DNA of 64,000 nucleotides from a bacterium HR40 (GTDB taxonomy: Bacteria; Pseudomonadota; Alphaproteobacteria; Geminicoccales; Geminicoccaceae). The position numbers and the translations under genes are program-made. The notes under the pieces were generated by a model. That model ran no database searches. It was given only the letters and a program-made list of their open reading frames with translations, and was not told the DNA's origin. The stretch lies in contig BEIQ01000004.1 of assembly GCA_002898275.1 (NCBI GenBank), forward strand, positions 62,001 through 126,000, in the 5' to 3' direction. Below are positions 42,004 through 52,750 of the stretch, piece by piece (the stretch's first letter is position 1; each line of letters begins with the position of its first letter).

Positions 42004-44691
42004 ATGGCCGATCGGATCGACGAACTGGAACGACATCTCCAAGACTGGGAAACCCGCAACCGCCGCCGGCTGTGGCTCGTGGTGCTGATCCCGCTCGCGG
42101 TGGGCGGCGCGCTTGCCGGGTACGGTTATACGCAGCTCTCCGTCTTGGAGGCCACGCTCGCGGATCTCGCCACCGCGATCGGGGCTGGCGAGAGCGAACG
42201 GGAGCGCCCCTCGCTCCTCGTCGAGCGGGCGAAGAGCGTGGCAGGGGAAGCGGCGCGAGCGGCAGCCCTCGATCAGGAGCTCGCCGCGGTTCAGGCGGCA
42301 CGCGAACAGGAAGCGGTGCGCGCTCGCGAGGAGCGGCGCCGTCTCGAACAGGAGCTGACCTCGGCCCGCGACCGCATCGCCCAGCTCGAGGTCGCGCGGG
42401 ATAAGGCACTGGTGCGGGTGGGGGAGCTCGAGCGGGCGCTCGCCGCGGCGCGCAGCGAGCTCGACGCGGCGAATGCCGAACTTGCCTCGAGCCGCGAGCG
42501 GATCGCCGCCCTCGGGGTCGAACGCGATCGAGCGAGCGAGCGGATCGCCGCCCTCGAGGCCAGCCTCGCCCAGACCCGGGAGGCCCTGACCGCAGCCGAG
42601 GCTCGGCTGGCGGAGATGGAACGATCGCTGGCAACCGCCATCGAGGAACGGGACGCGCTCGCTCGCGAGCGTCAGCGCCTCGCGGGAGAACTCGACAGCC
42701 TGCGGGCCGAGCGCGCCCGGTTGATCGAGGAGCGGGACGATGCGCGGCGGATCGCCGAAGCGGCAGCGGCCGGCCAAGAGGCTCTCATGGCGCGCTGGCG
42801 CGAGCAGGAGGCGGCCTCGGCGAGGCTTTCTCGCGAACTCGAGGCGCGGACCGCCGAGCTGCGAGAGAAGACGGCGGCTCTCGCGGCAGCGGTCGGCGAG
42901 CGCGATCGTTTGGCGCAGCGGCTCGCCGCTTCCGAGAGCGAACTGGGAGCCGCCCGCGACCGCCTCGCTCGACTCGAGGCGGCTTTGGCCGCCACGACGG
43001 CCGAGCGCGACGCGCTTTCCCGGGAACGGGCGAAGCTTGTCGAGACGTTGGCGGCGCGCGAGCGCGAGCTCGCGGCCGCTCGGGAAGTCGTCCGGACGGT
43101 GGGCACGCGGGCAGAGGATCTCGCGGGCGAGCTCGCCGCTCTCCGCGAAAAGCTTGCGCAGCTGGAGGCGGAAGCGGCCGGATTGAGGACGGAACGGCAA
43201 CGTCTGGCGCAGGAACTGAGCGCGCGCGAAACCGAACGGAGCGAACTGGAGCGTCGGCTCGGGGACGTCGTGCGACAACGCGATCGCCTCGAGGCCCAGC
43301 TGCGGGAGGCTCGCGCCCGTCTCTCGGAACTCGCGGCTGCGGGCGAGCGAGCCGAGGCGGCGCGGCGGGAGAGCGAGGCCCTGCGCGCGCGCGTGGCCGG
43401 GCTCGAGACGGAGCTCCAGGCGGCGCGCGATCGGGCCGAGCGGCTCGGGCACGAGCTCGAAATGGTCACCGCCGAACGCGATCGGTTGACCGCCAGGCTC
43501 GCCGATGCCGACCGCGACCTCGCCGAGCTCGAGAGCGAGCTCGCGGCCTTGCGCGCGCAGCTGGCGCGGCTCGACGACGAGCGCCGGCGAGCGGAAGCCG
43601 AACGACAGCGGGCGGCGGCGAGCAGCGAACAGCTGGTGGCCGAACGCGATGCTCTGAAGCGGAAGCTCGAGGAACTCGAGGCGGATCTACAGGTTCGCGG
43701 GCGCGAACAGGCGGAGCGGGTGGCTGCCCTCGAGCAGCGGCTGGAGGAGCTGCAGGGGCAGCTCGCCCAGATGCGCGCGGCCCGCGACGAGCTCGCTCGC
43801 AGGACCGAGGAGCTCGCGGCCGAACGCGAGCGGCTCGTGGGCGAGCTCGCCGCCAGCCGTCAGGACCTCGCAACGGCGCGGGCGGAGATCGAGCGTGCCC
43901 GCGCCCTCGTCCCGATGCAGGCGAGCGAGCGCGTGCCGGGCCTCGCACCGCAGACGCCGGGAAACGAAGAGCTGCAGCGCCGCCTCGACGCCCAGGCGGC
44001 ACGGCTCTTCGTGTTGCGCGACGAGCTCGCGCGCCGGGAAGCCGAGCTGCAGCAGGCGCGGGCGCAGCTCGAGAGCCTCGATGCCCAGGCGCGCACCCTG
44101 GCTGCCCAGCGGCAGGCGCTCCTGCAGCAGCTCGAACGGGCAGGCGTGCCGTTGCCCTCGGATGAGGTGGTGCGCCAGATCGAGGCGTCGCTCCAACCCC
44201 TCTCGCCGCTCTTGGATCGGGCAGCGCGCGAAGCGGTGGTCCGGGAAGGCCGCCACCGCGCGGCGATCCTCGCCAACCTTCCCGGTGTCGCCGATCTGCC
44301 GTTCGTGAAGGACGGCCATATCGTGATCGACACCGGGCTGCTGTTCGATTCGGGCAGCGCCGATCTCACCGAGGCGGGGCGGGCACGGCTTCTCGCCGAG
44401 GCGCTGCGGCTGCGACGGGCGATCGCCTCGCTGCCCGCCGAGCTGCCGTGGATGCTCCGCATCGACGGCCATACCGACGACCTGCCCGTGCGCCGCGGAC
44501 GGCTGCGCAACAACTGGGAGCTGTCGGCCGCACGCGCTGCCGCGGTTGCCGAATATCTCGTCGAACTCGGCTTCCCGCGCCAGCGCCTGATCGCTGCCGG
44601 CTTCGCCGACACGCGCCCGGTGGTGCCCAACCGCGACGAGGGCTCGCGGGCGCGCAACCGCCGCATCGAGCTCACCTTGGTGAGCGGCTGA
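42004..44691 (+). CDS. Inner-membrane coiled-coil protein with C-terminal OmpA/MotB domain
   Basis: An 895-aa protein: short cytoplasmic N-terminus, one membrane helix (about residues 21-42), then some 640 residues of continuous E/R/A/L-rich heptad sequence. It finishes with an OmpA-like peptidoglycan-binding domain (about 775-895). The OmpA domain shows LLFDSGSADLTEAGR, RIDGHTDDLPVR, NWELSAARAAAVAEYL and RRIELTLV. The domain order (TM, long coil, OmpA) resembles MotB-like or tethering proteins that span the periplasm; the coil is long enough to reach or exceed it. No partner motor gene is visible except the small membrane protein upstream. Confidence 0.85.
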   Translation: MADRIDELERHLQDWETRNRRRLWLVVLIPLAVGGALAGYGYTQLSVLEATLADLATAIGAGESERERPSLLVERAKSVAGEAARAAALDQELAAVQAAREQEAVRAREERRRLEQELTSARDRIAQLEVARDKALVRVGELERALAAARSELDAANAELASSRERIAALGVERDRASERIAALEASLAQTREALTAAEARLAEMERSLATAIEERDALARERQRLAGELDSLRAERARLIEERDDARRIAEAAAAGQEALMARWREQEAASARLSRELEARTAELREKTAALAAAVGERDRLAQRLAASESELGAARDRLARLEAALAATTAERDALSRERAKLVETLAARERELAAAREVVRTVGTRAEDLAGELAALREKLAQLEAEAAGLRTERQRLAQELSARETERSELERRLGDVVRQRDRLEAQLREARARLSELAAAGERAEAARRESEALRARVAGLETELQAARDRAERLGHELEMVTAERDRLTARLADADRDLAELESELAALRAQLARLDDERRRAEAERQRAAASSEQLVAERDALKRKLEELEADLQVRGREQAERVAALEQRLEELQGQLAQMRAARDELARRTEELAAERERLVGELAASRQDLATARAEIERARALVPMQASERVPGLAPQTPGNEELQRRLDAQAARLFVLRDELARREAELQQARAQLESLDAQARTLAAQRQALLQQLERAGVPLPSDEVVRQIEASLQPLSPLLDRAAREAVVREGRHRAAILANLPGVADLPFVKDGHIVIDTGLLFDSGSADLTEAGRARLLAEALRLRRAIASLPAELPWMLRIDGHTDDLPVRRGRLRNNWELSAARAAAVAEYLVELGFPRQRLIAAGFADTRPVVPNRDEGSRARNRRIELTLVSG

Positions 44692-44764: not shown

Positions 44765-46432
44765 GTGAGAAGGAAACTCGAAGGAGGCCGGATCGTCGAT
44801 CCGCTGCGTGGCATCGACGGTGTGGTCGGCGATCTGTGGATCGAGGATGGCCGCATCGTGCCGCCACCCGCGGACGGGCGGGCCGACGAAGTGATCGATG
44901 TCCGCGGCCGCATCGTCATGGCAGGCGGTATCGATATGCACAGTCATATCGCCGGCGGCAAAGTCAACATCGCGCGATTGTTGATGCCGGAGGAACATCG
45001 GAGCTGCCGCCACGGTCCTCTGGGGAGCTTTCGCGCCGGCTCCGGCCGTGCGAGCCCGGCCACCTCGACGACCGGTTACGAATATATCCGGCTCGGCTAT
45101 ACCATGGCTTTCGAGCCGGCGATGCTCGCCGCCAACGCCCGCCACGCCCACGAGGAGATGGCCGACATTCCGCTCCTCGATCGCGGCGCCTACGTCCTGC
45201 TCGGCTCGGACGATCTGCTGCTGTCCTGGCTCGCGAAGGGGGTCGGTGCTGCGGCCATCGGCGATCTCGTCCGCTGGACCCTCGCCGCGACCGGCGCCAT
45301 CGCCGTCAAGATCGTCAATCCGGGAGGAATCGCCGCTTTCAAGTGGAACGGTCGCCAGCTCGATCTCGACGAGCCCGGCCCCTACTTCGGCATCCGCCCG
45401 CGGCAGATCCTCTACGCGCTGGCCGATGCCGTCGATGCTCTCGGCGTGCCGCATCCGATCCACGTCCACGGCTGCAATCTCGGCGCGGCCGGGAGCCGGG
45501 ATTCCACGCTGGCCACCATCCGGGCGATGGAGGGCCGGCGCATCCATCTCACTCACCTGCAGTTCCACAGCTATGGCCGCGAGGGCAAGCGCGGGTTCTC
45601 GAGCGGCGCTCCCGAAATCGCCGAACTCGTGAACGCCAACCCGAATGTCAGCATCGACGTCGGCCAGGTGATGTTCGGACAAACGGTCACCGCTTCGGGC
45701 GACACCATGCGGCAGTTCGCCAACGCTCCCTTCGCTCGACCGCGGCGCGCCGTGTTCATGGACATCGAGTGCGAAGCTGGCTGCGGGGTGCTGCCGATGC
45801 GCTACCGCGAGCGCAACTTCGTCAACGCCCTGCAATGGGCGATCGGTCTCGAACTGTTCCTGCTCGTCGAGGACCCCTGGCGGATCGTGCTCACCACCGA
45901 CCATCCCAATGGCGCGCCGTTTCTGACCTATCCGCATCTCGTGCGGCTGCTCATGGACCGGGACTTCCGCATGGCGTGTTTCGAGAAGCTGCATCCAGGG
46001 GCGCGCGAGCTCTCCATCCTCCCCGCCATCCGCCGCGAATATTCGCTCTTCGAGATCGCCATCCTGACCCGCGCCGGACCCGCGCGGCTTCTCGGCATCG
46101 ACAGGGAATACGGTCATCTCGGTGCCGGAGCGGTCGCCGATATCGCCGTCTATGCCGACGATCCCGACCGCGAGCGGATGTTCGCCCATCCACTTTGGGT
46201 GTTCCGCCGGGGCGAACCGGTGGTGCGCGATGGCCAATTCTTGCCCGCGGCTGCCGAGGTGCGGGGCGGAACCCATCTCTTGGCCCTTGGCGAGGACGTC
46301 GATGCCGGCCCGGAGATCCGCCACTTCTTCCGACGCTATCGCGACCTCGCGGTGGAGAACTTCGCCATCTCCCCGGCCGAGCTGGAACGCCACGGGCCGG
46401 TCGTCCGTCATCCGCTGAGACCCCGTGCCTGA
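44765..46432 (+). CDS. fhcA: Formyltransferase/hydrolase complex subunit A (FhcA/FmdA-like amidohydrolase)
   Basis: Zinc-dependent amidohydrolase subunit that, in methylotrophic bacteria, hydrolyses formyl-methanofuran to formate within the FhcABCD complex. The 555-aa product begins RRKLEGGRIVDPLRGIDG like its homologues. It has DMHSHIAGGKVN (metal histidines about H59 and H61), the bridging lysine in VKIVNPGG (about K182), HVHGCNLG (233-240) and HLTHLQFHSYG. The aspartate in TTDHPNGAPF (about D379) completes the binuclear site. The GTG at 44765 fits the family N-terminus; the open frame upstream does not. It overlaps the next gene by 8 nt. The usual upstream fhcB is missing. Confidence 0.94.
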   Translation: MRRKLEGGRIVDPLRGIDGVVGDLWIEDGRIVPPPADGRADEVIDVRGRIVMAGGIDMHSHIAGGKVNIARLLMPEEHRSCRHGPLGSFRAGSGRASPATSTTGYEYIRLGYTMAFEPAMLAANARHAHEEMADIPLLDRGAYVLLGSDDLLLSWLAKGVGAAAIGDLVRWTLAATGAIAVKIVNPGGIAAFKWNGRQLDLDEPGPYFGIRPRQILYALADAVDALGVPHPIHVHGCNLGAAGSRDSTLATIRAMEGRRIHLTHLQFHSYGREGKRGFSSGAPEIAELVNANPNVSIDVGQVMFGQTVTASGDTMRQFANAPFARPRRAVFMDIECEAGCGVLPMRYRERNFVNALQWAIGLELFLLVEDPWRIVLTTDHPNGAPFLTYPHLVRLLMDRDFRMACFEKLHPGARELSILPAIRREYSLFEIAILTRAGPARLLGIDREYGHLGAGAVADIAVYADDPDRERMFAHPLWVFRRGEPVVRDGQFLPAAAEVRGGTHLLALGEDVDAGPEIRHFFRRYRDLAVENFAISPAELERHGPVVRHPLRPRA

Positions 46433-47027
46433 GTCCCCGCTCGCCCCCCTCGTCGTCAAGCTCGGTGGCAGCCTGCTCGACTCGCCGCGGCTCGCCTCTT
46501 GGCTCGAGGCCCTAGCCCGCCCGGCGCCGCGGGCGCGCCTCGTGGTGGCGGGCGGCGGTCCGTTTGCCGATGCCGTGCGGACCGGGCAGAAGCGGTGGGC
46601 CTTTTCCGATCTCGCTGCCCACCGCATGGCGATCCTCGCCATGCAACAGACGGCGCTCTTGCTCCATGACCGCGAACCGCGGCTCGAACCGGTGGAGGAC
46701 ACGGCCGGGATCGAGGCGCTCTGCCGGAAGTGCGGCGCGGGCGTCTGGTTGCCGTGGCGGCTTGCCGGTTACGAGCCATCCCTGCCGGCGAGCTGGCAGG
46801 TGACGTCCGATAGCATAGCCCTCTGGCTCGCCTCCTTCCTCGAGGCTCGTGCCGCGGTGATCGTGAAGCGCGGGCAACCTCCGCGCGATCCGCGCCGAGC
46901 CGCAGCCTTGGGCGTGGTCGATGGAGCGTTCGCCGCTTTTCTGGAAGGGCTCTCCTGCCCGGTCCATATCCTTGGCGAAGAGGAGAGCGGGCGGCTCTCC
47001 GGGATCCTTCGTGGGGACGAGGGGTGA
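46425..47027 (+). CDS. Amino-acid-kinase-family protein of the C1 operon (MfnE-like?)
   Basis: A 200-aa member of the amino acid kinase (aspartokinase/UMP kinase) fold. It has VVKLGGSLLDS at the N-terminus, VVAGGGPFADAVR, a helical LAAHRMAILAMQQ segment, and SDSIALWLASFLEA. It is shorter than typical UMP or acetylglutamate kinases. Kinases of this fold sit in bacterial methanopterin/methanofuran clusters. In methanogens MfnE phosphorylates the aminomethylfuran phosphate precursor of methanofuran, and the same role is a reasonable inference here. The GTG start lies inside the fhcA end, and the stop overlaps the next GTG (GTGA). Substrate unproven. Confidence 0.82.
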   Translation: MPESPLAPLVVKLGGSLLDSPRLASWLEALARPAPRARLVVAGGGPFADAVRTGQKRWAFSDLAAHRMAILAMQQTALLLHDREPRLEPVEDTAGIEALCRKCGAGVWLPWRLAGYEPSLPASWQVTSDSIALWLASFLEARAAVIVKRGQPPRDPRRAAALGVVDGAFAAFLEGLSCPVHILGEEESGRLSGILRGDEG

Positions 47028-47632
47028 GCGGCACTCCGGAAGACGCGTTCGCCGCCGAGGAGGAGGCGGAAGCCCCGCGCCGGCCGCGCTTGGCTTGGGC
47101 TCTCACCGGCTCGGGACACGATTTCCTGCCGTGCCTCGAAATCATTCGCCGCATCGGCGAAGTGGATGTCTTCGTGTCCAAGGCTGCAAGCGAAGTGATT
47201 TGGATGTACACTCGCGACAGGCGGCCGTTTCCAGCGGAGGTGCGGGTGATCCGCGACACCACAGCCTCTGCCGCACCAGTGGGTCGCTTCTACAAGGGCT
47301 GGTATCACACTCTGGTGATCGCGCCAGCGAGTTCCAATACCGTCGCCAAATGCGTCTTCGGTATCTCCGACACGCTGCCAACCAACGTCTTCGCCCAGGC
47401 GGGCAAGTGCCGAATTCCCATCATCGTGTATGCCTGCGACACCAAACCGGTGCACATCACCGCGGCGCCCGACCGTATCGTCACCGTCTATCCGCGCGCT
47501 GTCGACCTCGAGAACACGGAGCGTCTGCGCAGCTTCGAGCGCACTACAGTGGTCGAGAGCGTGGCCGAGCTCGAACGGGCGATCGCGGCCCGTCTCGCGG
47601 AACTCGCTGGATCTGCCGGGCAGGAGGGGTGA
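47024..47632 (+). CDS. Archaeal-type flavoprotein (DmrX/AfpA-like)
   Basis: A 202-aa HFCD-family flavoprotein. The core reads WALTGSGHDFLPCLEIIRR, VDVFVSKAASEVIWMY, and LVIAPASSNTVAKCVFGISDTLPTNVFAQA, the last being the FMN-binding PASSNT region. Close relatives include the archaeal AfpA flavoprotein and DmrX, the reductase that makes tetrahydromethanopterin from dihydromethanopterin. Placement between fhcA and fhcD strongly suggests a pterin- or C1-linked redox job. There is an acidic N-terminal extension of about 25 residues. GTG start overlapping the previous stop. Confidence 0.85.
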   Translation: MSGTPEDAFAAEEEAEAPRRPRLAWALTGSGHDFLPCLEIIRRIGEVDVFVSKAASEVIWMYTRDRRPFPAEVRVIRDTTASAAPVGRFYKGWYHTLVIAPASSNTVAKCVFGISDTLPTNVFAQAGKCRIPIIVYACDTKPVHITAAPDRIVTVYPRAVDLENTERLRSFERTTVVESVAELERAIAARLAELAGSAGQEG

Positions 47633-47633
47633 A

Positions 47634-48536
47634 GTGGACATCGACGGGGTCGAGATCCGCGACAGCTTCGCCGAAGCCTTCCCGATGCGTGCGACCCGCA
47701 TCCTCGTCACCGCTCCCGACCGCGGGTGGCTCGAGGCGGCGGCGCGCACCGCCACGGGCTTTGCGACGTCCGTCATCGCCTGCGGGGTCGAGGCGGGGAT
47801 CGAACGTTGGCTCGACCCGGCCGACACACCCGACGGCCGTCCGGGCGTGGCCCTGCTCTTCTTTGCCACCTCTCGACGCACCCTCGAGAGCCAGCTCGTC
47901 GCCCGCGTCGGTCAGTGCATCCTCACCTGTCCGGGCACCGCTTGCTATGCCGGGATCGACGGGAGCGAGAGGTTGCCGCTCGGCAGGAGTCTGCGCTTTT
48001 TCGGCGATGGTCACCAGATCGCCAAACGGTTCGGCGAGCGGCGCTTTTGGCGTATCCCGGTGATGGAGGGGGAGTTCCTGTGCGAGCACGACACCGGGCT
48101 CGTGACCGGTATCGGCGGCGGCAATTTCCTCATCCTCGCCCGCGACTTCCCCGCCGCCTCGGCGGCCGCTCGGCGGGCGGTTGCCGCGATGGAGGGGCTT
48201 GCCGGCATCGTCCTGCCGTTTCCGGGCGGCGTCGTGCGCTCCGGCTCCAAGGTCGGCTCTCGCTATGCGAAACTCTCGGCTTCCACCAACGATGCCTATT
48301 GTCCGACCCTGCGCGGGCGGGTCGAACATTCGGCGCTGCCGCCCGAGGTCGGCTGCGTGCTCGAGATCGTGATCGACGGTCTGTCGGCGGACGCCATCGT
48401 GGCCGGCATGCGGGCCGGGATCGTCGCCGCCTGCGCCGGTGGGCGAGCGAACGGAGTGCGGGCCATCGATGCCGGCAATTACGGTGGCCGCCTAGGACCG
48501 CACCATTTTCGTCTGCGCGAGGTGCTTGCGGCATGA
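47634..48536 (+). CDS. fhcD: Formylmethanofuran:tetrahydromethanopterin formyltransferase (Ftr/FhcD)
   Basis: Transfers the formyl group between tetrahydromethanopterin and methanofuran. The 300-aa product has the expected length and motifs: GVEIRDSFAEAFPMRATRI at the N-terminus, ATGFATSVIACGVEAGIER, DTPDGRPGVAL, and GQCILTCPGTA. It also shows FFGDGHQIAKRF, IPVMEGEFLCE, GIGGGNFLI, LPFPGGVVRSGSKVGS, LSASTNDAYCPTL and AGNYGGRLGPHHFRL. A GTG start is preceded by AGGAGG, with a 1-bp gap from the flavoprotein stop. It overlaps fhcC by 4 nt (ATGA). Not to be confused with mch, which is absent. Confidence 0.96.
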   Translation: MDIDGVEIRDSFAEAFPMRATRILVTAPDRGWLEAAARTATGFATSVIACGVEAGIERWLDPADTPDGRPGVALLFFATSRRTLESQLVARVGQCILTCPGTACYAGIDGSERLPLGRSLRFFGDGHQIAKRFGERRFWRIPVMEGEFLCEHDTGLVTGIGGGNFLILARDFPAASAAARRAVAAMEGLAGIVLPFPGGVVRSGSKVGSRYAKLSASTNDAYCPTLRGRVEHSALPPEVGCVLEIVIDGLSADAIVAGMRAGIVAACAGGRANGVRAIDAGNYGGRLGPHHFRLREVLAA

Positions 48537-49345
48537 GCCCGGACGGCTGGATCCTGCGCTTTCGCGAACCCCCGGCAGTGACGGTGGACGCCTCGCCCCT
48601 GTTGCCGGAGCGACTGTGCGGAACGGGCGAGCGGGAAGTGGCGGCCATTCCCTTGCAGTACGGCCGTGCTCGCGTGGCGCTCGGGGATCTCTGTGTCCTC
48701 TCCGTGGGGCCACCGCAGACCCTCGTGATCGAGGGAAGTAACCACAAGGTGCGGGGCATCGGCCGGAAAGCCAGCCGGGGAACCCTGATCGTCGACGGCG
48801 ATGCCGGGGATCTCGTGGGCGAGGGACTTTGCGGCGCGCGCATCGAGGTTCGCGGGAGCGTGGGTGACCGGCTGGCGTCGGGGATGCAGGCAGGCGTGAT
48901 CGAGGTCTCGGGCGCGGCGGGCGACTTCGCCTGCGCGGCCCTGCCGGGAGGCGAGAGCACGGCCGGCGGCATCGTCCGCATCGGCGGACGCACCGGCGCC
49001 CGGGCCGGCGACCGGATGCGCCGCGGCGTTCTCGTCTGCGAGGGCGGGGCGGGTGCCCTCACCGGTGCCTTTATGCTCGGCGGCACGATCGTGGTCCGCG
49101 GCGACCTCGGTCGGGATCCCGGCTTTGCCATGCGGCGCGGCAGCCTGATCGCGCTCGATGCCCCGACCGAAGCGCCTGCCACCTTCCGGGACGATGGCGC
49201 GCACGAGTTCCTGTGGCTGGCCCTGCTCGAACGGCACCTGCGGGAAACGGCTGGCCTGGACCTCTGCCTGCCGCGCCGATTGCGCCGGTTTTCGGGTTGC
49301 GCTTCGGTCGGTGGCCGGGGCGAGTTGCTGTTCGTTTCGCATTAG
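48533..49345 (+). CDS. fhcC: Formyltransferase/hydrolase complex subunit C (FhcC)
   Basis: Structural subunit of the FhcABCD complex, homologous to FmdC/FwdC and to the C-terminal beta-helix of glutamate synthase. The 270-aa product consists largely of parallel beta-helix turns with the GxxGxxxG-type repeats: GDAGDLVGEGL, GSVGDRLASGM, GAAGDFACAAL, GRTGARAGDRM, GGAGALTGAFM, GDLGRDPGFAM. The start is the ATG overlapping the fhcD stop. The stop TAG is part of a strong AGGAGG ribosome-binding site for the next gene. Confidence 0.93.
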   Translation: MSPDGWILRFREPPAVTVDASPLLPERLCGTGEREVAAIPLQYGRARVALGDLCVLSVGPPQTLVIEGSNHKVRGIGRKASRGTLIVDGDAGDLVGEGLCGARIEVRGSVGDRLASGMQAGVIEVSGAAGDFACAALPGGESTAGGIVRIGGRTGARAGDRMRRGVLVCEGGAGALTGAFMLGGTIVVRGDLGRDPGFAMRRGSLIALDAPTEAPATFRDDGAHEFLWLALLERHLRETAGLDLCLPRRLRRFSGCASVGGRGELLFVSH

Positions 49346-49355
49346 GAGGACGGCT

Positions 49356-50405
49356 ACGGGCTTCCCGCCTCTCCTCGAACCCCTCGCCTGGCACTGGGGT
49401 GCCGAGAGTGCGAGGCTCGTCGCCTCGGGGCACGCGCTGCCGCTGCTCGGGGGCCGATTCGCTTGCAGCCTGTTCGCTGCGGTGACGGTCGAAGAGGGAG
49501 AATTCGGTTGGCGTACGCCCCTGACGGCGCGCGAGGTGGCAGCCGATCCCGCCTTCGCCTCCGCCCTCGCCCGGCTCATGGCCGCCCGCCCGGCGCCGTT
49601 CGATCGGCCGCGCATCATGGCCATCCTCAATGTGACACCGGACAGTTTCTCGGACGGCGGACGCTTCGCCCCGCTGCCGGCGGCGATCGCCGCGGCCCGC
49701 GCCTTCATCGAGGAAGGTGCCGATATCGTCGACGTCGGCGGGGAATCGACCCGGCCAGGAAGCCAGCCGGTGGCGATCGAGGAGGAGCTCGAGCGGGTGC
49801 TGCCCGTCGTCGAGGCGCTGAGCCGGGACGGCATCTTCGTCTCGGTCGACACCCGCAAAGCGGCGGTGGCCCGCGCCGCGCTCGCCGCGGGTGCGCGCAT
49901 GATCAACGACGTCAGCGGTCTGCAGTACGATCCCGCCCTCGCCGAAGTGGTGGCGGAAGCCGGGGCCTTCCTCGTCCTCGGCCACAGCCGCGGTGAGCCG
50001 GCGACGATGAACCTCGCACCCACCTACCGCGACTGCCCCCTCGAATGCTTTCTCGAGCTCGAGCGATCCCTCGCCCGGGCGCGCAGCGCCGGCATCGCCG
50101 CGCACCACCTGCTCGCCGATCCCGGTCTCGGTTTTGCCAAAAAGGAGCCGCACAATCTCGCCATTCTGCGGCATCTCGGCCTGTTCCACGGGCTCGGAGT
50201 GCCGCTCGTGCTCGGCGCTTCGCGCAAGGGCCTGACCGCCCGCCTCGAGCGCGGTTATCCTCCGACCGCGCGGCTTCCAGCCTCGCTAGCCGCTGCCCTC
50301 CTCGCCCTCGAGCGGGGCTTTGCGGTGCTGCGGGTGCACGACGTGACCGCCACCCGTCAGCTCGTCGACCTCTTCGCCGCCCTCGACAGCTGCGCTGCCA
50401 GCTGA
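49356..50405 (+). CDS. folP: Dihydropteroate synthase-type enzyme, apparent ACG start
   Basis: Couples a pterin diphosphate to an aminobenzoate-type partner. The core (from about residue 85) has ILNVTPDSFSDGG, DVGGESTRPGS, VSVDTRKA, INDVSG, GHSRGEPATMN, DPGLGF(A)KK, LGASRKG and the C-terminal RVHDV, so the active site looks intact. An N-terminal segment with SGHALPLLGGRFA resembles the extension of alphaproteobacterial FolP. No ATG, GTG or TTG is available in frame before that extension. An ACG at 49356 lies 6 nt after AGGAGG, and the next usual start is a GTG at 49482. It may serve folate synthesis or, given its operon, methanopterin synthesis. Confidence 0.86.
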   Translation, partial: TGFPPLLEPLAWHWGAESARLVASGHALPLLGGRFACSLFAAVTVEEGEFGWRTPLTAREVAADPAFASALARLMAARPAPFDRPRIMAILNVTPDSFSDGGRFAPLPAAIAAARAFIEEGADIVDVGGESTRPGSQPVAIEEELERVLPVVEALSRDGIFVSVDTRKAAVARAALAAGARMINDVSGLQYDPALAEVVAEAGAFLVLGHSRGEPATMNLAPTYRDCPLECFLELERSLARARSAGIAAHHLLADPGLGFAKKEPHNLAILRHLGLFHGLGVPLVLGASRKGLTARLERGYPPTARLPASLAAALLALERGFAVLRVHDVTATRQLVDLFAALDSCAAS

Positions 50406-50495: not shown

Positions 50496-51599
50496 ATGCC
50501 GATCGAGGAGCGCTCGCGGGCCGTGCGGCTGCAGGGAGGTCTGCGCCGGCGGCGGTTTCTCGGGCTTGGCGGTGCCAGCGCCGGTCTTTCGTTGTGGCTT
50601 GCGTCGACCGAGCAGGTGGGCGCGGCACCACAGCGGCACAGCGCGCATGCCCACGAGCTCGCCTTTGGCACCCGCGGAAGCGTGGATCACGCCGCCAATG
50701 GCTTCGACCCGCACGCGATGCTCACCGACTTCGACACCGGCAGCGTATCGCGGCGGGGCGATGGCCGCAGGCTACGGGAGTTCACCATCACCGCGATCGA
50801 CCGAGCGATCGAGATCGCGCCCGGCGTCGCGTTCGAAGCCTGGACCTACAACGGTCGGGTTCCGGGACCGACGCTGCGGGCGACCGAGGGCGACCTCGTC
50901 CGCATCCATTTCGCCAATGCCGGGAGCATGCCGCATACCATGCACTTCCACGGCATCCATCATGCGCGCATGGACGGCGTGCCGGGGGCCGGCGAGGTGA
51001 TGCCGGGCGAGACCTTCGTCTACGAGTTCGAGGCGAAGCCCTTTGGCTGTCATCTCTACCACTGTCATTCGCTGCCCCTCAAACGGCATCTCCACCGCGG
51101 CCTCTACGGTGTGTTCATCGTCGACCCGGACCCCGCCCGGCATCCGTCGCATGCGGCGGCCCGCTCTCGCCTCTTCGGCTCGCCCGAGAATGCCGAGTGG
51201 CAAGAGTTCGTCATGGTGATGAATGCGTTCGATACCGACTTCGACGAAGAAAACGAATTCTATGCAGTCAACACCATACCCTTCGCCTACATGGATAAAC
51301 CGATCCCTGTCGACCGTTCCAGACCTGTCCGGGTTTATCTGGTCAACGTTACGGAATTCGATCCGATCAATTCATTTCACCTCCATGGCAATTTCTTCGA
51401 CTACTACGATCATGGTACCACGCTCGAGCCCACGCTCCGCACCGTCGACACCGTCATGCAGTGTCAGGCCCAGCGCGGCATCCTCGAATTCCACTTCCGC
51501 GAGCACGAACCGGGCCTCTACATGTTCCACGCCCATCAGAGCGAGTTCGCCGAGCTCGGCTGGATGAGCGCCTTTGCCGTGGGAGACGGCACGTCATGA
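50496..51599 (+). CDS. Tat-exported two-domain multicopper oxidase
   Basis: A 367-aa periplasmic oxidase. A twin-arginine signal RRRRFLGLGGASAGLS precedes two cupredoxin domains. Domain 1 has HTMHFHGIHH (residues 147-156) and HLYHCHSLPLKRHLHRGLYG, with Cys190 flanked by His189 and His191. Domain 2 has FHLHG (His295, His297) and FHAHQ (His345, His347) without a cysteine. So the trinuclear cluster ligands are complete, and the type 1 copper lies only in domain 1, the 'type C' arrangement of two-domain oxidases. Substrate unknown; the manganese-type regulator and metal transporter in the same operon suggest a metal ion such as Mn(II), Fe(II) or Cu(I). Confidence 0.88.
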   Translation: MPIEERSRAVRLQGGLRRRRFLGLGGASAGLSLWLASTEQVGAAPQRHSAHAHELAFGTRGSVDHAANGFDPHAMLTDFDTGSVSRRGDGRRLREFTITAIDRAIEIAPGVAFEAWTYNGRVPGPTLRATEGDLVRIHFANAGSMPHTMHFHGIHHARMDGVPGAGEVMPGETFVYEFEAKPFGCHLYHCHSLPLKRHLHRGLYGVFIVDPDPARHPSHAAARSRLFGSPENAEWQEFVMVMNAFDTDFDEENEFYAVNTIPFAYMDKPIPVDRSRPVRVYLVNVTEFDPINSFHLHGNFFDYYDHGTTLEPTLRTVDTVMQCQAQRGILEFHFREHEPGLYMFHAHQSEFAELGWMSAFAVGDGTS

Positions 51600-52750
51600 T
51601 CCGCAGCCTGTGGGCGCCTGCGGCCGGCTTGCTGCTCACTCTCGCGCTCGTCGGTTTCTTCCTCGTCGTTCGGCCTCTCGACCGTTTGACCGAAGGGGTG
51701 CCGCCGCGCGAGGCGCTGGTGGTCGAGGCAAGTCGTCTCCGCCCCGACGGCATCGAGCTCGTCCTGCGCGCGGACGGTGCCGCACCCGTGCGCATCGCCC
51801 AGGTACAGGTGGATGGCGCGTACTGGCGCTTCGTGCAGGAGCCGCCGGGAGCGCTGGCACGCCTCGGTACGGTCCGCCTCTTCCTTCCCTATCCGTGGCA
51901 GCAGGGTGCTACGCATCATCTGCGTCTCGTGAGTGCCACCGGTGCGACCTTCGATCACACCATCGAGGTGGCTATCGCCACCCCGCCCCTCACCGCCGCC
52001 ACGCTTGGGCTCTATGGTCTCGTCGGGCTGGCGATCGGGGTCGTGCCGGTGGCCATCGGTCTGCTGGGCTGGCCGCTCTTGCGGCGGCTGTCGCAGGATG
52101 GCCTCGGCTTCGTCCTGTCCTTGACGCTCGGTTTGCTCGCCTTTCTTTTCCTCGACACCTTCGCCGAGGCGCTGGCGGCGGCGGCGAGGCTTCCGGCGGC
52201 CTTGCGGGGCGAGGCGGTGGTGTGGCTCGCGACCCTCCTCGTCGCTCTCGCGTTGTTCGCCTCTGGCCGGCGCGGTGGGACGGTGCCGGAGGCCGCATCG
52301 CTCGCCTTTTTCGTCGCCCTCGGCATCGGGCTGCACAATCTCGGCGAGGGACTCGCCGTCGGTGCGGCCCTCGCCACCGGCGAGGCCGCGCTCGCATCGT
52401 TTCTCGTCGCCGGCTTCACCCTCCACAATGTGAGCGAGGGGCTCGGCATCGCTGCGCCCCTCGTGCGCGAGCGGCCCTCTTTCGCATTCTTCTCCGGACT
52501 CGCCCTGCTCGCCGGGCTTCCCGCCATCGTCGGCAGCTGGGCCGGAGCGTTCGTGGCGACGCCGCTTCCCGTCACTCTGTGCTTCGTCGCCGCAGCCGGT
52601 GCCATCTTGCAGGTGATGGTCGAGCTTGCCGCCTGGCTCGTGCGCAGCGAGACCTCGACGAGCGGGGCGGGGCTGCGACTTGCCCATCTCGCGGGCTTTG
52701 CCCTCGGCCTCGCGGTGATGTACGCGACCGGTCTTTGGACTGCCGTCTGA
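51596..52750 (+). CDS. ZIP-family metal transporter with N-terminal extra domain
   Basis: A 384-aa membrane protein. The C-terminal ~250 residues form a ZIP transporter with the metal-site motifs HNLGEG (helix 4, about residue 247) and HNVSEG (helix 5, about residue 277). In front there is a separate membrane helix (about residues 7-27) and a ~110-residue, beta-rich, probably periplasmic domain (GIELVLRADGAAPVRIAQVQVDG; RLFLPYPWQQGATHHLRL). Ordinary bacterial ZIP proteins lack this. The ATG overlaps the oxidase stop (ATGA), so the two are translationally coupled. Likely substrate Mn(II), Fe(II) or Zn(II). Confidence 0.86.
   Translation: MIRSLWAPAAGLLLTLALVGFFLVVRPLDRLTEGVPPREALVVEASRLRPDGIELVLRADGAAPVRIAQVQVDGAYWRFVQEPPGALARLGTVRLFLPYPWQQGATHHLRLVSATGATFDHTIEVAIATPPLTAATLGLYGLVGLAIGVVPVAIGLLGWPLLRRLSQDGLGFVLSLTLGLLAFLFLDTFAEALAAAARLPAALRGEAVVWLATLLVALALFASGRRGGTVPEAASLAFFVALGIGLHNLGEGLAVGAALATGEAALASFLVAGFTLHNVSEGLGIAAPLVRERPSFAFFSGLALLAGLPAIVGSWAGAFVATPLPVTLCFVAAAGAILQVMVELAAWLVRSETSTSGAGLRLAHLAGFALGLAVMYATGLWTAV

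Follow-up and report, generated by a model that had tools for sequence, protein, structure and literature searches.

The formyltransferase/hydrolase (Fhc) genes of methylotrophic Proteobacteria form an fhcB-A-D-C operon. In Paraburkholderia xenovorans LB400 (L069), fhcA is flanked directly by fhcB upstream and fhcD downstream, and mfnE is on the opposite strand at a distance of about 5 kb. Previous reports have described FhcB as a scaffold subunit without a Mo/W metal cofactor or redox activity (PMC10100899). MfnE/Orf21 acts in methylofuran synthesis (PMC8141765), and DmrB is responsible for the last step of tetrahydromethanopterin (H4MPT) synthesis (PMC6193120).

We analyzed a 64,000-nucleotide stretch (the window) from the genome of a Geminicoccaceae bacterium, in which six co-directional genes occupy 44765-50405 of the + strand. 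We confirmed the place, strand and order that the earlier note had given for them: fhcA, an amino-acid-kinase gene, a flavoprotein gene, fhcD, fhcC and folP. The canonical contiguous fhcB-A-D-C arrangement is absent here, as the kinase and flavoprotein genes, mfnE-like and dmrB-like, split fhcA from fhcD, and fhcB is on another contig. Immediately upstream of fhcA (44765..46432, GTG start at 44765), in the place of fhcB, there is a gene for an 895-amino-acid OmpA-domain coiled-coil protein (42004-44691). The earlier description of the arrangement as lacking fhcB thus holds for the locus and fails for the genome as a whole. The overlapping starts that had been claimed for the inserted genes can be read from the sequence: fhcA and the kinase gene (46425..47027) overlap by 8 nucleotides, and the kinase and flavoprotein (47024..47632) genes by 4, as GTGA. 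A single nucleotide separates the flavoprotein gene from fhcD (47634..48536), which has an AGGAGG ribosome-binding site ahead of it; fhcD and fhcC (48533..49345) share an ATGA overlap, and a further AGGAGG lies at the fhcC stop, ahead of folP (49356..50405, start uncertain). These tight or overlapping junctions suggest that translation of the genes is coupled. The region 3' of folP (50496-52750) holds genes for a multicopper-oxidase-like protein and a weakly ZupT-like membrane protein, followed by one for an MntR-type regulator.

We compared this arrangement with those at 111 fhcA loci from Geminicoccaceae, other Alphaproteobacteria and named relatives. In this sample, which is biased toward Burkholderiales so that further examples are possible, fhcB was directly upstream of fhcA at 97 loci, mfnE was directly downstream of fhcA in the window only, and no other genome had the exact fhcA-kinase-flavoprotein-fhcD-fhcC order. 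That the order was seen in no second genome would fit an assembly artefact fusing unrelated pieces. However, the junctions consist of the 8- and 4-nucleotide gene overlaps and the 1-nucleotide gap with its ribosome-binding site, and the contig that carries the window is 317 kb long, in an assembly of 8 contigs with a rated completeness of 100% and contamination of 0.08%. We therefore consider an artefact extremely improbable.

FhcA, FhcC, FhcD and FolP all score above curated NCBIfam cut-offs. FhcA (the hydrolase subunit; TIGR03121, 666 bits) matches the Methylorubrum extorquens-type FhcA chain of 6s6y with E=3e-138 and retains the motifs HSH, KIVN, HVHG, THLQFH and TTDHPNG. FhcD, the formyl-methanofuran:H4MPT formyltransferase, scores 417 bits against TIGR03119, and FhcC, subunit C, scores 178.7 bits against TIGR03122. 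The two inserted genes give lower scores. The kinase belongs to the Pfam AA_kinase family and reaches 57 bits (E=1.7e-15) against the NCBIfam MfnE model (NF040622), below its cut-off of 300 bits; it is 35 to 47% identical to the kinases of betaproteobacterial C1 clusters and 47 to 57% identical to Geminicoccaceae copies, and its orthologues sit in C1 clusters. The flavoprotein (Pfam Flavoprotein) scores 88.6 bits as AfpA and 87.1 bits as an MJ0208-type dihydromethanopterin reductase, both below the model cut-offs. Its residues 20 to 194 match the solved Burkholderia DmrB/AfpA structures (3wis/4mwg) with E=8.8e-52, a full-length match, and it is 69 to 80% identical to Geminicoccaceae copies. 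Judged by these assignments and by the published roles of FhcB, MfnE/Orf21 and DmrB, the operon most likely encodes three Fhc subunits, an enzyme of methylofuran synthesis and the enzyme for the final step in making tetrahydromethanopterin. Homology to MfnE and DmrB, together with the recurring linkage of these genes in relatives, thus supports the earlier proposal of a role for the inserted genes in making or reducing the cofactors, the activities themselves being predicted.

For the missing fhcB, two explanations had been offered: a complex working without FhcB, or an fhcB elsewhere. Our search of the genome that contains the window (2.89 Mb in 8 contigs, with a completeness rating of 100%) found an intact, full-length fhcB on another contig (C2:12663-13886), which encodes 407 amino acids with no internal stops. 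Its product scores 216 bits against TIGR03129, below the cut-off of 327.8, which none of seven tested genomes reaches. The alignment with archaeal FwdB runs over the whole length, and that with the FhcB chain of 6s6y starts at residue 52. Where FwdB has its metal-ligand cysteine region NTASVCHGP, the C2 protein has HGASDGLFA and lacks the Mo/W ligand cysteine, which fits an FhcB expected to be a scaffold without a metal cofactor. Downstream of this fhcB are the ABC-transporter genes of a PQQ-dependent alcohol dehydrogenase system. An enzyme functioning as FhcACD, with no FhcB subunit, would agree with the absence of fhcB from the operon and its placement on another contig. However, the genome keeps the gene intact beside PQQ-alcohol-oxidation genes, and full-length fhcB is also kept in five relatives, in four of them apart from fhcA. 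An FhcB-less complex is therefore very improbable, and we ruled it out on the finding of fhcB in the same genome; of the two earlier explanations, the second stood and the first found no support. Thus, the locus reflects a known pathway whose genes were shuffled in this lineage rather than an enzyme short of one subunit. We also considered the N-terminal CxxCxxxC of FhcB as a special feature and rejected it, since it is variable: of 101 fhcB genes surveyed with a simple pattern, 43 have it, and it is lost in Arboricoccus. The Arboricoccus pini protein (L051 7451-8788) has SPFNALGSDDL in place of the iron-sulphur motif CPFC...C, though its gene still lies in a BADC operon; the other Geminicoccaceae FhcB proteins retain the motif.

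The genes that the earlier note had named for a genome search, fhcB together with mch, mtdB/mtdA, fae and mptG, proved to be present, with mtdB as the one found of the pair mtdB/mtdA. Targeted searches placed mch, mtdB, myfB and a xoxF-type dehydrogenase gene on contig C3, fae, mfnF and mptG on C1, and myfA on C5. With fhcB and these remaining pathway genes present, the organism is predicted to oxidize methanol or formaldehyde to formate by the tetrahydromethanopterin/methylofuran route. We therefore read the locus, with a probability of about 0.9, as the Fhc operon of a predicted XoxF-type methanol/formaldehyde oxidizer in the Geminicoccaceae, in which fhcB-A-D-C has been broken up and its fragments have acquired genes for making the two cofactors of the enzyme. 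FhcA, FhcD and FhcC from the operon would presumably join FhcB from its separate locus in the usual FhcABCD complex. There, FhcD would take the formyl group off formyl-tetrahydromethanopterin and pass it onward via methylofuran, FhcA would hydrolyze it to formate, and FhcB would serve as a scaffold without redox activity. MfnE would be the source of the furan part of methylofuran, DmrB would reduce dihydromethanopterin to tetrahydromethanopterin, and FolP may join pterin to aminobenzoate in folate, in tetrahydromethanopterin or in both.

Disordered fhc genes as such are common in the Geminicoccaceae. We found fhcA in 9 of 31 genomes of the family, and fhcB was detached from fhcA in eight of these nine. 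Only Arboricoccus pini (G013) kept the BADC order; G013 was recognized as this species by an identical contig sequence, which sets the family as Geminicoccaceae. One relative (G011) has A-D-C with fhcB on a separate contig; two others (G016 and G023) have A-D, and their fhcB is on the opposite strand at a distance of about 10 kb; and in G043, A-D has no fhcB ahead of it. In genus g15 (G014, G041 and G042), folP-fhcA-dmrB adjoins a divergent mfnE. In all seven relatives in which mfnE was located (G011, G013, G014, G016, G023, G041 and G042), a folP adjoins it or is no more than a few kb away. We also considered whether the operon had been transferred in from outside the family. FhcA is 59 to 68% identical to proteins of the same family and at most about 58% identical to others, and these identities leave such a transfer unsupported. 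Outside the family, four genomes of family f9 (G031, G171, G269 and G349; L055, L056 and L183-L185) carry fhcA without a recognizable adjoining fhcB or fhcD. In one of them, G031, fhcB, fhcD and fhcC lie together on another contig and mch was not found, so the C1 pathway may be partial or divergent there. A literature search on fhc gene dispersal in Planctomycetes returned nothing decisive.

The last gene of the operon raises the question of which pathway its product serves. FolP scores as a dihydropteroate synthase (DHPS; TIGR01496, 276 bits, above the cut-off), and the genome has two DHPS genes, the second of them on contig C5. FolP has a conserved N-terminal extension that resembles that of a G011 copy (G011:C4) and begins near 49356, behind the AGGAGG. 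In this region (49346-49580), no in-frame ATG, GTG or TTG lies near the AGGAGG, and only ACG codons, at 49350 and 49356, come before the GTG at 49482. Candidates for the start, all in frame, are the ACG at 49356, this first GTG and, at 49578, the first ATG. Translation may begin at a rare start codon, the protein may be shorter, or the sequence may contain an error.

In a tree of 13 DHPS sequences, the operon FolP, the pabBAC-linked G011 copy and one betaproteobacterial copy form a group with support of 98/96. A second group (93/94) holds the mfnE-linked copies of the relatives, this genome's second copy and one from a relative that has no fhc genes. The tree places the operon copy apart from the relatives' mfnE-linked copies; thus, linkage to mfnE/fhc genes has arisen for DHPS genes of two different clades. 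From the sequences, this double linkage appears compatible with recruitment to tetrahydromethanopterin synthesis and also with a folate gene that is there by chance. The tree separates the DHPS copies, and specificity for p-aminobenzoate or RFAP is not readable from sequence. That the operon FolP is an ordinary folate-type enzyme there by chance, leaving only MfnE and DmrB functionally tied to Fhc, is a serious contender to which we give slightly less than even odds. It agrees with the standard DHPS score of FolP and its grouping with the pabBAC-linked copy. However, a DHPS gene of the other clade is linked to mfnE in 7 of 7 relatives in which mfnE was located, and DHPS linkage to these genes therefore recurs. 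A more ambitious proposal is that the operon is a single unit for the enzyme complex and its two cofactors, in which folP was drawn into tetrahydromethanopterin synthesis separately from the mfnE-linked DHPS of sister genera. We regard this as rather unlikely; if true, it would make the bacterial RFAP-joining step testable on a defined paralogue pair. A literature search for the bacterial RFAP-joining enzyme yielded nothing decisive. Independently of these questions, no dihydropteroate synthase was found in two Geminicoccaceae genomes without fhcA that are rated 99 to 100% complete (G001 and G005), where loss of the C1 pathway was possibly accompanied by that of folate synthesis. G016 and G023, which share a genus with G005, each have a DHPS gene linked to mfnE.

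These results remove the false lead of an Fhc complex without FhcB. They show that mfnE, dmrB and a DHPS gene are tied to the C1 pathway in the Geminicoccaceae, a linkage that supports the proposed cofactor roles, and they provide a pair of DHPS paralogues with which to ask which enzyme acts in tetrahydromethanopterin synthesis. The earlier note had held that the locus would be an ordinary lineage variant if an intact fhcB lay next to C1 genes elsewhere and if the order were common in relatives. The first part was borne out, with fhcB beside C1/alcohol-oxidation genes, but the second was not, the order being unique among the 111 loci. Thus, the system is a known one and the locus a variant of it in this lineage, with a new gene order that we saw nowhere else in our sample.

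Compared with the fhcB-A-D-C operon of P. xenovorans LB400, the locus encodes the same subunit families, with FhcA about 56% and FhcD about 58% identical. Arboricoccus pini provides the canonical operon within the same family, with FhcA and FhcD 62% identical to those of the window, which suggests that the canonical order was ancestral. It differs from the window in that fhcB is in place and that mfnE adjoins folP on another contig, apart from fhcA. The cluster of genus g15 is alike in grouping fhcA with mfnE, dmrB and a folP and in having no fhcB in front, but its gene order is different and its folP belongs to another DHPS clade. In one g15 genome (G014), fhcD and fhcC have mch nearby, and the gene immediately before fhcB is of the xoxF type. 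A single bacterial family thus spans the range from the canonical BADC operon to Fhc subunit genes in three separate places.
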